This document shows positions 18,632 to 61,512 of a stretch of 64,000 nucleotides of DNA, one piece after another. Location: contig NZ_JAGFOA010000001.1 of NCBI RefSeq assembly GCF_017592545.1, forward strand, positions 1-64,000. Direction: 5' to 3'. Source of the DNA: Microbacterium stercoris (GTDB lineage Bacteria > Actinomycetota > Actinomycetes > Actinomycetales > Microbacteriaceae). Every line of letters starts with the position of its first letter. Within the stretch, counting starts at the first letter, position 1. A model generated the notes under the pieces. The model was given only the letters and a program-made list of their open reading frames with translations. It made no database searches and was not told the origin of the DNA. A program made the translations under genes and the position numbers.

Positions 18632-18799
18632 CGCTCGTCGAGCGAGCGCCAGCGAGTCGAGACGCCCCAAACCCGCCGGCGGCTCCAGCCCGCGGTCGTG
18701 ACACCCGTTTCGACTCGCTCCGCTCGCTCAACGAACGAACCAGCACCTCCGCCCGAGGTCGTGACACCCGTTTCGACTCGCTCCGCTCGCTCAACGAAC
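18632..18799. repeat. Copies of the modular head-core-tail repeat, including a 43-bp direct repeat
   Basis: One forward copy with a short core lies at 18632-18666. Two identical 43-bp reverse-oriented copies, each starting GGTCGTGACACCC, lie at 18694-18736 and 18757-18799 (period 63). They sit between the convergent marR and acyl-CoA dehydrogenase genes. Confidence 0.85.
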
Positions 18800-27517: not shown

Positions 27518-27561
27518 GGTCTCCAGTCTACGGAGGGTGGTCCCCACCCACCCTCGCCCGC

Positions 27562-30035: not shown

Positions 30036-30168
30036 CCGCTCGTCGAGCGAGGGAGGAACGACCGAGTCGAGACGCCCCAGCCCAGCCCTGCACCCCGCCC
30101 GGCGCCCGCCCCAGCGCCCCACCCCCCGCTCGTCGAGCGAGGGAGGAACGACCGAGTCGAGACGCCCC
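30036..30168. repeat. Two direct copies of the modular repeat (GGGAGGAACGACC core)
   Basis: Copies at 30036-30078 and 30126-30168 are identical over 43 bp (period 90). Each has head CGCTCGTCGAGCGA, core GGGAGGAACGACC and tail GAGTCGAGACGCC. They lie between the divergent-side end of the methyltransferase gene and doxX. Confidence 0.9.
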
Positions 30169-30215
30169 AGCCCGCCCGCGCCCGCCCCGCGACGCGCGGC
30201 GACGCGCGCCCCGGA

Positions 30216-41506: not shown

Positions 41507-41679
41507 GGCGTTTCGACTCGCTCCGCTCGCTCAACGAGCGGGTGAGGGGCGGAGCGGGGAAGGGGAGGAGCGGGGTAGGGGAGGAGCGGGGTAGGCGCAG
41601 GGGCGGGGCCGTTGCCCTCACCCTTGCCCCTCCTTCCCTCGTTCGTTGAGCGAGGGAGGAACGACCGAGTCGAAACGCC
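41507..41679. repeat. Inverted pair of modular repeats enclosing a tandem GC element
   Basis: A reverse copy (41507-41540, starting GGCGTTTCGACTCG) and a forward copy (~41638-41679, core GGGAGGAACGACC, ending CGAGTCGAAACGCC) face each other. The interior contains GGGGAGGAGCGGGGTA twice. The pair marks the left edge of the accessory block between trxA and parB. Confidence 0.85.
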
Positions 41680-49231: not shown

Positions 49232-49915
49232 CTACCGCCGCGCGGAGTACATCAGCTCGGGACGCCCGGCGTGGCCGTAGCGCGGCTCGCGCGCAGCGAG
49301 ACCCGCCTCCACCAGGCGCTCGAGGTACCGGCGCGCGCTGACGCGCGACATCCCGAGCTGATCGCCGAGCTCGGCAGCGGACACCGGTTGACCGTGTGCC
49401 TCGAGCGCCGACGCGACGCGTTCGAGGGTGAGCGGAGAGACGCCCTTGCGCGCACCGGCCGAGGCGAGCGCGTCGCGGCGCATGAGCTGGTCGACGGCGG
49501 TCTGGTCGAGCTCGGAACCCGCCGCCAGGGCGGAGTCGCGCTCCAGGGTGCGCCACACGTCGTCGAGGCGCTCGTGCAGCGCCTGCATGGGGAAGGGCTT
49601 GACGAGATAGTGGTGCACGCCGTGGGCACGGGCCACGCGCACGGTCTCGAGGTCGCGCGCCGCGGTGACCGCGATCACCTCCACGCGCGATCCGGACACC
49701 CGGGCCCGCCCGAGCACCGAGATGCCCGACATGTCGGGCAGGTAGACGTCGAGCAGCATCACGTCGGGCTCGAGCTCGGCGAGCGCCCGGAGGGCCTCCG
49801 AGCCGGTCGACGCGACGCCTACGACCTCGTACCGCGGATGCCGCTCGACGAACCCGCGCGTCACGTGTGCGACGGCGAAGTCGTCCTCCACGATGAGGCA
49901 CCGCACCTTGCTCAT
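49232..49915 (-). CDS. Response regulator, CitB/DcuR/DpiA family
   Basis: This 227-aa response regulator has a receiver domain (acidic D11/D12, phospho-acceptor D56 in VMLLDVYLPDMSG, Lys in HYLVKPF). The C-terminal HTH is of the CitB type (SAAELGDQLGMSRVSARRYLERLVEAGLAAREPRYGHAGRPE). Such pairs control di- and tricarboxylate uptake. The kinase is immediately upstream and tctCBA is divergent, which fits. The start context MSKVR is copied twice in the 34 bp ahead of it. Confidence 0.93.
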   Translation of the reverse strand: MSKVRCLIVEDDFAVAHVTRGFVERHPRYEVVGVASTGSEALRALAELEPDVMLLDVYLPDMSGISVLGRARVSGSRVEVIAVTAARDLETVRVARAHGVHHYLVKPFPMQALHERLDDVWRTLERDSALAAGSELDQTAVDQLMRRDALASAGARKGVSPLTLERVASALEAHGQPVSAAELGDQLGMSRVSARRYLERLVEAGLAAREPRYGHAGRPELMYSARR

Positions 49916-49958
49916 TACCGCACCTCGCTCATGACCGCACCTTGCTCATGACCGCACC
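49908..49958 (-). repeat. Three 17-bp tandem repeats at the kinase/regulator junction
   Basis: Units at 49908-49924, 49925-49941 and 49942-49958 differ by single bases. On the minus strand each carries GGTGCGGTNATGAGCNA. The first holds the kinase stop (TCATGA), and the copies create mini-ORFs MSKVRS and MSEVR before the regulator start. Confidence 0.92.
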
Positions 49959-55005: not shown

Positions 55006-55263
55006 TCAGTGGTCGCGCAGCTTGGCGATCAGCTGGTCCTTCTTCAATCCCGAGTAGCCCTCGATGCCGAGCTCCTTGGCGCGCTTGCGCAGCTCGTCGA
55101 CGGTGCGATCCTCGTAGTCCTCCGCTTCGCCGCCACGGTGTCCTACGGCGCCGCGACCGTCACGAGCGGCGGCATTCGAGATGCGGGCCGCCTTCTCCTT
55201 GGAGTTTCCCTCGTCGCGCAGCTTCTCGTAGAGCTCTTCGTCCTTGATGCTGCGGTTCGGCAT
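55006..55263 (-). CDS. Small protein with Rho-N/SAP-like domain
   Basis: This 85-aa protein has an N-terminal stress-protein-like segment (MPNRSIKDEELYEKLRDEGNSKEKAARISNAAA, the DUF7218 pattern). The C-terminal Rho-N/SAP-like helix pair is RTVDELRKRAKELGIEGYSGLKKDQLIAKLR, which suggests nucleic-acid binding. It starts one base after the stop of the upstream SDR gene, so the two are an operon. Similar small proteins accompany general-stress genes in Actinobacteria; the role is inferred. Confidence 0.85.
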   Translation of the reverse strand: MPNRSIKDEELYEKLRDEGNSKEKAARISNAAARDGRGAVGHRGGEAEDYEDRTVDELRKRAKELGIEGYSGLKKDQLIAKLRDH

Positions 55264-56128: not shown

Positions 56129-56225
56129 GCCCCCGACGCTACGGACGCACGCACGCTGGGTGCAGGGTCTTGACATCCCCGCCCTCGGAGAGCAAGCTCC
56201 GCCGCCCCCCGCCCCGCCGACCCCT

Positions 56226-57137
56226 CGCTCGTTGAGCGACCGCAGCGAGCTCTGCGAGCGCAGGGAGTAGAAACGCCCAAGCCCAGCTCGCGCCCGGGCC
56301 GCGTGCTCCAGCCCCGCGGGCCGCAACCCGCGAGCTCCAACCCCGCGGGCTCAAACCCCCCGGGCCCGCCCCCCCGCTCGTTGAGCGACCGCAGCGAGCT
56401 CTGCGAGCGGCGGGAGTCGAAACGCCCAAGCCCACCGCGGGCCCAACCCCGCGAGCCGCAACCCGCGAGCTCCAACCCCCGGGCCCGCCCCCCGCTCGTT
56501 GAGCGACCGCAGCGAGCCCTGCGAGCGCAGGGAGTCGAAACGCCCAAGCCCTGCCCGGGCCCCAACCCGCGGGCTCGACCCCCGGGCTTCGCCGCCGCTC
56601 GTTGAGCGACCGCAGCGAGCCCTGCGAGCGCAGGGAGTCGAAACGCCCAAGCCCAGCCCGCAGCCCCAACCCACAGGCGCGAACCCGCGGGCCCGAACCC
56701 CCCCGCTCGTTGAGCGACCGCAGCGAGCTCTGCGAGCGCAGGAAGTCGAAACGCCCAAACCCACCGCGGCCCCATCCCGCGGGCTCCACCCCGCGGGCCG
56801 TAGCCCCAACCCCTCGCTCGTTGAGCGACCGCAGCGAGCCCGGCGAGCGCAGGGAGTCGAAACGCCCCAGCCTCCCCCCGGGCCCCAGCCCGCGGGCGCG
56901 ACTCCCGCGCTCGAAGCCCCCGCTCGTTGAGCGACCGCAGCGAGCCCTGCGAGCGCAGGAAGTCGAAACGCCCAAGCCGATCCGCGCCCCACCCCGCGGG
57001 CTCGAACCCCGCGGGCCGCAACCCGCGAACTCCAACCGCGAACTCCAACCCGCGCCACGCTGGCACGCGCCCCGCCTGCCCCCTCGCTCGTTGAGCGACC
57101 GCAGCGAGCCCTGCGAGCGCAGGGAGTCGAAACGCCC
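56226..57137 (+). repeat. Array of eight 53-bp modular repeats
   Basis: Units start at 56226, 56375, 56493, 56596, 56704, 56815, 56921 and 57085, all in the same orientation. Each has head CGCTCGTTGAGCGA, a 26-nt core with CGCAGCGAGC and CTGCGAGCG, and tail GAGTCGAAACGCCC. One to three substitutions separate copies. Spacers of 50-111 bp are Pro/Arg-like GC text (CCGCGGGC words) that also resemble one another. The long ORFs read through this region are repeat artefacts; 56129-57744 holds no gene. Confidence 0.93.
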
Positions 57138-57150
57138 TACGCCAGCTCAA

Positions 57151-57641
57151 CGCGTTTCGACTCGGTCGCGGGCTCCCTCGCTCAATGAGCGCGGGTGGTC
57201 ACGCTCCACGCGGGCCACACCCCACCCGACGCCGTACGCCAGCTCAACGCGTTTCGACTCGGTCGCAGGCCCCTCACTCAACGAGCGCGGGGTGCTCACC
57301 CCGCGCGGGGCCACCCCCGTCCCACGCCCAACGCGGCTCGACGCGTTTCGACTCGGTCGCGGGCTCCCTCGCTCAACGAGCGCGGGTGGTCACACTCCAC
57401 GCGGGCCACACTCCATCCGAGGCCCTACGCCAGCTCGACGCGTTTCGACTCGGTCGCGGGCTCCCTCGCTCAACGAACGGGGTGATCACAGCTCACACGG
57501 GCCACCCCTGTCCACGCCCTCGCCCGACGAACGCGGTGGCCATACCCACGCGGCCCAGCCCACCCGACGCTCTACGCCAGCTCGGCACGTTTCGACTCGG
57601 TCGCAGGCTCCCTCACTCAACGAGCGCAGTCATCACAGCTC
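57151..57641 (-). repeat. Second array: five reverse-oriented modular repeats, ~97-bp period
   Basis: Reverse copies have GTTTCGACTCGGTCGC at 57154, 57251, 57345, 57442 and 57599 (periods 97, 94, 97, 157). A decayed copy near 57520 fills the long step. Here the core reads GGGAGCCCGCGACC on the minus strand. The inter-unit text (GTGGTCAC...CACGCGGGCCACA...TACGCCAGCTC) is repeated too, so the whole ~97 bp is a tandem unit. Confidence 0.9.
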
Positions 57642-57703: not shown

Positions 57704-57731
57704 GGCCGATGTTTCACGTGAAACATCGGCC
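57704..57731. promoter_or_regulatory. parS inside a 28-bp palindrome downstream of parB
   Basis: Perfect parS at 57711-57724 is extended on both sides to GGCCGAT...ATCGGCC, 28 bp of perfect dyad. It lies 13 bp after the parB stop, and on the minus strand it is followed by CCCCTTTGTG, so it could also end the parAB transcript. Confidence 0.9.
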
Positions 57732-57744
57732 GCCTCGAGTCGGT

Positions 57745-58734
57745 TCAGGCTCCGTAGCCCTCTTCGCCCAGCTCCGAGAGGATGCGGTTGAGATCCTGGA
57801 TCGTCGCGAAGTCGATCTTGATCTGCCCCTTGCGCGAGGTGAGGTCGATCTTGACCTTGGTGTTGAGGCGGTCGCCGAGGCGCTCCGACACGTCGTTGAG
57901 GAACGCCCGGCGCGCGCCCGCCTTGGGCTTCGGGGCCTTGCTGGCAGCGGTGCCAGACTCGGCCGTGACGACCTTGGCGGCGGCCTCCGCGGCGCGGACC
58001 GAGAGATCCTCGTTCACGATCTTGTCCGCAAGCTTCTGCATCGCGTCGGCGTCCTGCAGCGACAGGATCGCGCGCGCGTGACCCGCGCTGAGCACTCCCG
58101 CGGCGACACGCTGCTGCACGGGGACGGGCAGGCGCAGAAGGCGGATGGTGTTGCTGATCTGCGGACGAGACCGTCCGATCCGCTTGGCCAGCTCCTCCTG
58201 GGTGGTGCCGAAGTCCTCGAGCAGCTGTTGGTAGGCCGACGCCTCTTCGAGCGGGTTCAGCTCAGAGCGGTGAAGGTTCTCAAGCAGCGCATCGCGCAGG
58301 AGATCCTCGTCGGCGGTGTCACGCACGACCGCGGGGATCGAGGTCAGTCCGGCTTCGCGCGAGGCGCGCGTACGGCGCTCGCCCATGATGAGCTCGAATG
58401 TGCCATCGCCCTTGTCACGCACAACCACGGGCTGAAGCACACCGAACTCGCGCACGCTGTGCACCAGCTCGGCAAGGTCCTCCGGGTTGAAGTGCGTGCG
58501 CGGCTGACGCGGGTTCGGCACGATCTTGTGCGGATCGATGTGGACGAGCCTCGCACCCGGCACTGCGAGAAGTTCCGCCTCCGCGGCGGCCTCCGCCGCC
58601 TTATCGGCTGCCTCCGCCGCCTTCTTGGTTGGCGCCCCGGGGAAGAACACGTCGACCGGGCGCTCCGATCCGGAGTCTGCCGTCGGGATGAGCGCGCCGA
58701 TGCCTCGCCCCAGTCCTGTTCGCTTCGCCGCCAT
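57745..58734 (-). CDS. parB: Chromosome-partitioning protein ParB
   Basis: This 329-aa centromere-binding CTPase has the N-terminal region with LVHIDPHKIVPNPRQPRTHFNPEDLAELVHSVREFGVLQPVVV. The CTP/GERR box is FELIMGERRTRASREAG, the parS-binding helix-turn-helix is TQEELAKRIGRSRPQISNTIRLLRLP, and a C-terminal dimerisation domain is present. The start overlaps the parA stop (ATGA). Its sites (perfect parS) occur at 57711, 59642, 59735, 59779, 60862, 61583 and 27562. Confidence 0.96.
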   Translation of the reverse strand: MAAKRTGLGRGIGALIPTADSGSERPVDVFFPGAPTKKAAEAADKAAEAAAEAELLAVPGARLVHIDPHKIVPNPRQPRTHFNPEDLAELVHSVREFGVLQPVVVRDKGDGTFELIMGERRTRASREAGLTSIPAVVRDTADEDLLRDALLENLHRSELNPLEEASAYQQLLEDFGTTQEELAKRIGRSRPQISNTIRLLRLPVPVQQRVAAGVLSAGHARAILSLQDADAMQKLADKIVNEDLSVRAAEAAAKVVTAESGTAASKAPKPKAGARRAFLNDVSERLGDRLNTKVKIDLTSRKGQIKIDFATIQDLNRILSELGEEGYGA

Positions 58735-61003: not shown

Positions 61004-61512
61004 GCGTTTCGACTCGGTCGCAAGCTCCCTCGCTCAACGAACGATGGGAGGGGAGCGTTCGGACTGCGCACTCACCCTCCCGCTCGTTGAGCGAGCGCAG
61101 CGAGTCGAAACGCCCTCACCCCCGCGGGCAGCTCGGTGCGTTTCGAACGAAAGAGGGGAGGGGAGCGATCGAGCCGCGCACTGATCACCCTCCCGCTCGT
61201 TGAGCGAGCGGAGCGATTCGAAACACCCTCCTCCCCACGGGCAGCGCGGCGCGTTTCGAACGAGGGAGGGGAGGGGAGCGACCGAACCGCGCACTGATCA
61301 CCCTCCCGCTCGTCGAGCGAGCGGAGCGAGTCGAAACGCCCTCATCCCCACGGGCGGCTCGGCGCGTTCCGAACGAGAGGAGGGGCCCGATCGAAGCGGG
61401 CACTCACCTTCCCGCTCGTTGAGCGAGCGCAGCGAGTCGAAACGCCCTCACCCCCGGGCGGCAGCTCAGCGCGTTTCGACTCGGTCGCAAGCTCCCTCGC
61501 TCAACGAACGAG
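61004..61512. repeat. Third array: ~113-bp tandem units of paired modular repeats
   Basis: Forward copies start at 61081, 61194, 61307 and 61413 (periods 113, 113, 106). Between them are inverted copies with an internal deletion (GTTTCGA joined directly to ACGA) at 61140, 61253 and 61366. Full-length inverted copies with GTTTCGACTCGGTCGCAAG flank the array at 61006 and 61473. No gene is seen in 60876-61694. Confidence 0.9.

Follow-up and report, generated by a model that had tools for sequence, protein, structure and literature searches.

An array of eight 53-bp units beside parB in Microbacterium stercoris probably arose by local amplification within a dispersed family of REP-like DNA repeats; their working form would be the hairpin of the G-A strand, and the place of the array next to parB would be incidental. 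Our confidence in this reading rests on the repeat family and is unchanged by the lead to a GIY-YIG nuclease that is described below. The window referred to throughout is the whole stretch of DNA that was analysed, the first 64,000 nucleotides of contig NZ_JAGFOA010000001.1.

The array beside parB

The eight units lie on the same strand within positions 56226–57137 and start at 56226, 56375, 56493, 56596, 56704, 56815, 56921 and 57085. These positions agree with a first-pass annotation, which had described eight same-strand units of about 95% identity in 0.9 kb; over the 53 bp we obtained a mean pairwise identity of 0.963 (96.3%; range 0.925–1.000). The seven spacers, which are 50–111 bp long and consist in part of short tandem repeats with a period of 13–15, reached 0.73 identity across aligned columns, and the earlier picture of short conserved units among degenerate spacers (0.96 vs 0.73) was borne out. 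The array had also been called gene-free, and our own codon-usage gene caller likewise placed no gene inside it; the long open reading frames that cross it were taken as artefacts of GC-rich repeats. Five opposite-strand units of a second subtype, one of them degenerate, continue the array at about 57153–57626, and the composite of both subtypes spans about 56222–57626. A perfect parS at 57710–57725 lies between this composite and parB, which ends at 57745.

56226..56278 (+), unit 1/8, 3' core mutated to GTAGAAAC
56375..56427 (+), unit 2/8
56493..56545 (+), unit 3/8, consensus
56596..56648 (+), unit 4/8, consensus
56704..56756 (+), unit 5/8
56815..56867 (+), unit 6/8
56921..56973 (+), unit 7/8
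57085..57137 (+), unit 8/8, consensus
57153..57191 (-), second-subtype unit, degenerate (CATTGAG)
57250..57283 (-), second-subtype unit
57344..57378 (-), second-subtype unit
57441..57475 (-), second-subtype unit
57588..57622 (-), second-subtype unit, last before parB

Each unit of the array is made up of a CGCT tag, a 46-nt element and CCC, and reads as a palindrome in the form CGTT-GA-GC-GA-CC-(3x3 mismatch)-GC-GA-GC-YCT-GC-GA-GC-(3x3)-GG-GA-G-T-C-GA-AACG. Variation is confined to six of the 53 positions: two belong to the predicted loop, three are G.A or mismatch positions and one, in copy 1, is a Watson-Crick position, a number too small for a statistical test. In copy 1 GTAGAAAC replaces GTCGAAAC in the 3' core, and the exact core pattern is present in the other seven units. 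A head hairpin and a second dyad, CGCAG/CTGCG, had been noted in every unit. Both can be drawn, but the head hairpin did not hold up as a conserved structure, as it can form in 52 of the 81 elements of this genome, in 10 of 55 from M. paludicola and in 1 of 15 from a distant genome, and three further Microbacterium genomes gave 0/23, 0/9 and 0/10. The window contains a further tandem repeat at 49900–49958, with a 17-bp period (ACCGCACCTTGCTCATG, 3.5 copies) and a sequence unlike that of the hairpin-repeat family.

A dispersed family of elements

The pattern GTTGAG-N8..36-GTCGAAACG gave 81 matches in this genome (34 on one strand, 47 on the other) and none for the reversed control, and the 81 exact cores group into 26 sites. 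Once the type with C-G next to the core is included, the window and the other stretches fetched from this genome hold about 125 elements, a count that includes at least two overlapping matches. The assembly has a reported contamination of 7.14%. Elements elsewhere in the window are as follows.

18706..18796 (-), two 27-nt-core elements between convergent genes
30037..30191 (+), two elements with a CGTC/GACG foot (C-G in place of T-A beside the core)
41509..41677 (both strands), one element per strand, bordering a 2.8-kb stretch absent from M. paludicola
61005..61510 (.), second large cluster of the window, between a DAGK/YegS-like gene and rsmG (gidB)

Across 119 Microbacterium genomes the reversed control gave 0–1 matches, while 49 genomes had at least one match to the pattern, 21 (this one included) had at least 10, the maximum was 130 and 70 had none; M. 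paludicola carries 121 exact-core matches. A looser pattern matched 111 of 249 Microbacteriaceae genomes (controls 0–2), with high copy numbers in scattered genera (270, 95, 86 and 71), and in these high-copy genera the minimal 17-nt form GTTGAGCYTGTCGAAAC predominates among the matches listed. Outside the Microbacteriaceae, in a search of 296 genomes of the phylum, copy number was high only in G372 (33) and in G649 (115), which belongs to another family. All of these numbers are lower bounds, because the patterns demanded GTCGAA and the site that was read in one Microbacterium genome, G049, uses mostly GACGAA. A phage origin was considered and rejected, the exact 27-nt form having 0 matches in viral contigs. 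We recognised no description of this repeat family in the literature searched, which misses subscription papers, and strings of the minimal element had no match in the literature text searched.

Palindrome anatomy and covariation

Comparison between elements shows each unit to be a single imperfect palindrome: CGTT-GA-GC-(variable stem)-G-T-C-GA-AACG. Three parts make it up. The foot is precise and mostly CGTT...AACG; the core, TGAGC...GTCGAA, is fixed and has an additional T, which in some elements is A; the inner stem varies. Along the palindrome, Watson-Crick steps take turns with 5'-GA/3'-AG steps; the stem mismatches are nearly all 5'-GA-3' facing 5'-GA-3', and the GA opposite GA mismatches all fall on one and the same strand of the element.

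The ends of the elements were imposed by the search pattern and the middles were free. In a symmetric pairing of 102 distinct middles, 49% of pairs were Watson-Crick, 42% G.A, 1% G.T and 8.5% other, and Watson-Crick and G.A together made up 90.7%, against 50% in shuffled sequences (27% + 23%; maximum 55.6% in 500 shuffles). Tandem G.A steps were almost uniform, with 108 GA/GA, two GG/AA and one AG/AG. Three kinds of match were excluded from this set: those in which GTTGAG occurs a second time, a few long ones that looked like chance, and forms that came from the phylum-wide search only. The 18 middles from G649, with nested-second-element matches and 17-nt forms left out, gave 92.7% Watson-Crick or G.A pairs vs 47% when shuffled (maximum 58.5% of 1000), a typical example of such a stem being CGATC-GA-GGC-GCTA-GCC-GA-GATCG. 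Since the elements share descent, shuffles overstate their independence and related sequences inflate the counts, and (GAGC)n-like sequence may account for some of the G-A signal. When 3' arms were swapped among elements of equal length, pairing was 80.8% (maximum 85.3%) compared with a native value of 91.5% in 97 Microbacterium elements, and 75.5% (maximum 88.1%) compared with 91.7% in 15 G649 elements; 0 of 2000 swaps reached the native value in either set.

The foot gave a sharp edge when it was left free. In this genome the flanks of TGAG[CT]...GTCGAA paired at 0.86, 0.88 and 0.88 over three bases and then at 0.05, the corresponding values being 0.77, 0.84 and 0.82, then 0.06, in G119 and 1.0, 0.95 and 0.85, then 0.10, in G649. 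Flank complementarity in 15 element-poor relatives was 0.41–0.50. Seven different complementary feet occur across all groups; the T-A-type elements of this genome all have CGT/ACG, and the next pair beside the core is C-G at 30.0 kb and in an array at 828 kb. The extra core T is mostly A in the G049 array that was read, a change that fits the expectation for an unpaired base.

Loops, strand and folding energies

The loops of the 102 middles comprised 44 GNA (39 closed by C-G), 14 cGNNAg, 12 gCNNGc, 13 YCT and 19 others. CNNG loops are a DNA-stable class, and together with GNA and GNNA such loop types account for 70 of the 102 distinct forms, 32 falling outside those classes. In G649, 13 of the 18 loops were cGNNAg. 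Excerpts of PMC4686876 describe GNA and GNNA loops on two G-C pairs as extraordinarily stable, nuclease-resistant DNA mini-hairpins, with GCGAAGC melting at 78 °C. The G-A strand outscored its complement in 49 of 58 cases with DNA parameters and in 46 of 58 with RNA parameters, and the elements are apparently built to fold as single-stranded DNA.

The energies themselves were unremarkable, with folding z values of -1.0 to +1.8 for six elements of this genome under RNA parameters. The predicted fold of the consensus unit was two small hairpins and not the G-A hairpin, most elements did not yield the G-A fold under DNA parameters, and in many 46-nt units the reverse strand scored equally well or better with RNA parameters. 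Folding energies alone give the proposed structure no support; it is one that rests on comparison.

Placement in the genome

None of the 81 elements of this genome lies within a called gene, and three do so in G099 and two in G049, as judged by a simple codon-usage gene caller. Intergenic element sites in six genomes fell between convergent genes in 35 of 72 cases, vs 46 of 381 element-free pairs from the same stretches (OR 6.9, p = 2e-11); divergent pairs showed no significant depletion (7/72 vs 61/381 controls, p = 0.21). Because L001 and L089 overlap, M. paludicola contributed its parB site and its rsmG site two times each to this count, in both cases classed as tandem. The elements are mostly intergenic, with a bias to the 3' ends of genes.

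The enrichment between convergent genes would suit an element that works as RNA, a transcribed hairpin that is useful at gene ends as a terminator, a 3'-UTR stabiliser or a small RNA. RNA parameters also return the G-A fold for several elements, and tandem G.A pairs are stable in RNA as well as in DNA. Orientation, however, is not tied to transcription, since elements at 11 tandem sites of this genome run along it at five, against it at three and are mixed at three. GNRA loops are found in none of the 14 GNNA tetraloops of Microbacterium (GCCA, GTCA, GACA) and in only two of the 13 of G649, flank composition revealed no T-run downstream of the elements, and an Rfam search of the window at gathering thresholds gave 0 matches. 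An RNA-level role therefore seems unlikely to us.

Facing pairs (> <) are narrowly spaced, with gaps of 25–27 or 39–42 in 21 of 23 pairs in this genome and of 28–29 or 41–42 in 11 of 17 in M. paludicola, and none in G081. Back-to-back and same-strand neighbours, the latter as common and making up 48 of the 87 neighbours in this genome, do not keep to such gaps. Elements carry CGNT on their 5' side in four of the five Microbacterium genomes (CG[C/T]T here, mainly CGGT in G119, G081 and G049). In G099 a CGAAACG-like sequence precedes most of the nine elements, and in G649 the flank is [A/C]GCC. At 29.97–31.1 and 41.5–44.3 kb of the window, elements border gene blocks that are present here and absent from M. 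paludicola, and they may mark indel breakpoints.

History of the parB site

The parB-SDR gene pair is common to six relatives (gene starts from tblastn). The gap between the two genes is about 120–185 bp with no elements in five of them, 435 bp with elements of other subtypes in M. paludicola, and 1616 bp here. The exact 53-bp array subtype has 16 matches in this genome and none in 365 other Microbacterium genomes, and therefore spread recently; forms of 43–45 nt occur at seven sites of this genome. At the site orthologous to the 828-kb array, M. paludicola also has an array, of other subtypes. Taken together, the parB-SDR, 828-kb and subtype comparisons indicate that sites persist while subtypes turn over, and that a new subtype spread in this lineage. 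The recent amplification that the first-pass annotation had considered is supported by both the confinement of the subtype to this genome and the short, element-free gaps of the five relatives. A clean empty insertion site was not found, and at 30.0 kb and 41.5 kb the difference from M. paludicola amounts to whole genes. Adjoining the SDR gene, 55006–55263 (-) encodes an 85-aa protein with DUF7218 and Rho_N/SAP-like matches.

Array length differs between species, the inner sequences are rich in GAGC and GCGA and the spacers carry period 13–15 repeats, as they would if degenerate (GAGC)n-like tracts and GC-rich spacers had grown by slippage, with neither structure nor mobility. Such a neutral expansion would not, however, provide a compensatory foot that stops at an exact edge, inner stems that compensate in two families, dispersal to 26 sites or units so much better conserved than their spacers, and the G649 stems already argue against the arm complementarity depending on GAGC-like elements. 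We regard it as improbable.

Candidate partners

The first-pass annotation had raised a RAYT/TnpA_REP-like gene as a partner, and our search turned up no Y1_Tnp domain (PF01797, E <= 0.001) in this genome. The domain was also absent from 118 of the 119 Microbacterium genomes, the single positive (G041, L027) carrying 0 elements, and from all 12 high-copy genomes, six of which were also in the 119-genome survey. The search covered the Y1_Tnp family, and its control was positive in 5 of 14 known genomes. The tag-plus-hairpin anatomy, intergenic position, opposed pairs and genome-specific subtypes are all what classical REP/REPIN elements moved by RAYT would display, but the absence of Y1_Tnp from this genome and the high-copy genomes, together with the lack of a GT[AG]G tag, contradicts that reading for the current spread, and we think it very unlikely. 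A RAYT lost in the past is still conceivable.

A different gene recurs among the elements. In two relatives, M. paludicola and G049, they surround or adjoin a gene for a GIY-YIG protein of 98–106 aa. The elements begin 54 bp downstream of the gene in M. paludicola (L090 3373–3693), and the nearest solved relatives of its product are UPF0213 proteins. In G049 (L066 4074–4370) they flank the gene at distances of 112 bp on the upstream side and 14 bp on the downstream side, and the array there is a mixture of subtypes lying on opposite strands. Microbacterium sp. cf046 (L009) encodes a homologue (43–44%) between six YGAGTA...TATCGAR palindromes, the nearest 99 and 86 bp away, which by our reading share the foot, the GA/GA and the extra-T layout; the 20.9 kb of L009 contain no element of the main family. 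These sibling palindromes (L009 7989–8865) bracket the GIY-YIG gene and interleave with parS in the parB region. A tblastn search (E <= 0.01) found no homologue in the stretches of this genome that cover all 26 sites, near the listed sites of G078 (16), G038 (27) and G099 (14), at seven of eight G102 sites or in the fetched parts of the G081 and G649 sites, and UPF0213-like genes may be common in general.

Chenal and colleagues are said to have reported in 2025 that Ssn of Neisseria, a GIY-YIG nuclease, cuts a dispersed REP-like repeat (NTS) as a single strand, and the target is reportedly of the dRS3/CGTC-1 type. We tentatively propose a GIY-YIG nuclease as the partner of the repeats, because its gene lies among elements in two relatives, its L009 homologue lies between sibling palindromes and the Neisseria system offers a precedent; this candidate comes from adjacency and UPF0213 homology. 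Other recurrent neighbours (aldehyde dehydrogenases, SDRs, ParA-like, PadR, VanZ and GATase proteins) look like common families and were set aside, and the GIY-YIG gene is the sole plausible partner among the recurrent neighbours.

The position next to parB

A special link to parB, next to which the earlier annotation had placed the array, was not supported by comparison. Among 15 other Microbacterium parB loci, an exact element lies within 1.5 kb downstream of parB only in M. paludicola, and the array is absent from the five relatives that share the parB-SDR pair, so the link is best seen as incidental. A role in organising the chromosome, through ParB/parS, SMC or the origin, would explain why the array sits in a parS cluster and why parS motifs alternate with elements at the M. 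paludicola rsmG-DAGK site, yet 12 of the 15 loci have no exact core in the stretch examined, though all 15 have parS, and just two of the 26 sites of this genome, those at parB and rsmG-DAGK, are near parS, which leaves this explanation scarcely credible.

Sites resembling parS (0–2 mismatches) occur around parAB at 57710–57725, 59641, 59734, 59778, 60861, 61582 and 61653 of the window, with a separate one at 27561. The parS that follows parB sits in the palindrome GGCCGATGTTTCACGTGAAACATCGGCC and is followed by CCTTTG on the strand of parB, and for this reason may double as part of a terminator. In the rsmG-DAGK gap of M. paludicola (L001 7226–7920) there are five parS motifs alternating with REP-like elements, as if pairs of parS and element had been duplicated together.

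A possible mechanism

The G-A strand would be the working form, in a single-stranded state. Sheared G.A pairs in tandem, together with loops of the types stable in DNA, would make the hairpin, which the complement, with T.C mismatches, would form less well. A UPF0213-like GIY-YIG nuclease might then nick the hairpin in single-stranded DNA, the least certain step. Through template switching or gene conversion, repair would write one subtype over others and carry it to new sites. Arrays would grow by slippage or unequal exchange, and no host role would be needed. The full proposal, of actinobacterial REP-like mobile DNA in which a one-strand G-A zipper hairpin is recognised and subtypes are spread and homogenised by a GIY-YIG single-strand nuclease rather than a Y1 transposase, is a speculative one. 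If it is true, sibling nuclease-palindrome pairs, as in L009, would make the combination of GIY-YIG and palindrome a wider system.

How REP-type repeats without a RAYT spread is a question that parts of PMC3733652 raise for the CGTC REPs. The present family is abundant, its subtypes are specific to genomes and its edges are defined; some sister species carry elements and others lack them, and a concrete candidate partner is at hand. Its one-strand G-A design predicts which strand would be bound or cut. Surveys that demand perfect arms may overlook such repeats.

Comparison with known repeat systems

The elements resemble the GTAG REP, BIME and REPIN sequences in being short imperfect palindromes, mostly intergenic, with a 4-nt 5' tag in most genomes, some opposed pairs and species-specific subtypes. 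They differ from GTAG REPs in having no GT[AG]G tag and no Y1 RAYT found, an extra core base, up to three tandem G.A steps and actinobacterial hosts. All eight units of this array lie on one strand. Integron attC sites were considered because GTTGAGC fits GTTRRRY, the end motif of attC, and were rejected, the order of the ends being reversed in the elements.

The G.A interruptions are not unique to this family, going by portions of two surveys. Centres of the CTTG or GNA-like kind occur in some REPs, and by our reading the same GA-GC-TT-GC-GA layout is seen in the REP of Coxiella (GTAGGTTGGGCTGAGCTTGCGAAGCCCAAC; both from excerpts of PMC2817692); P. aeruginosa GTAG-24 contains unpaired GA residues (excerpts of PMC3733652). 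The CGTC REPs, as portrayed in the sections available of Di Nocera 2013 (PMC3733652), are likewise REP-like with no dedicated transposase. They differ in their CGTC tag, stems of 8–9 bp, loops of 4–5 nt and rarity of clusters, and Actinobacteria are not among the five phyla that those sections name; the flanks of our elements have no unpaired CGTC tag and their stem is interrupted. REP-like sequences without terminal motifs are mentioned for M. tuberculosis in the same sections (PMC3733652). The fold-back hairpins of Streptomyces telomeres share the loops, GCA and GGA (sheared) and CTTG, according to parts of PMC7205883. Those hairpins lie at the ends of linear replicons, whereas the Microbacterium elements are internal, dispersed and very short.

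As with Ssn and NTS in Neisseria, M. paludicola and G049 have a small GIY-YIG gene in the midst of a palindromic repeat that is dispersed, but here the connection is known from gene adjacency in two genomes and UPF0213 homology. The general features of REPs are all present, namely a short imperfect palindrome in 81 exact cores, a mainly extragenic position and a covarying stem, and our verdict is that the family is a new, RAYT-less variant of the REP repeats.
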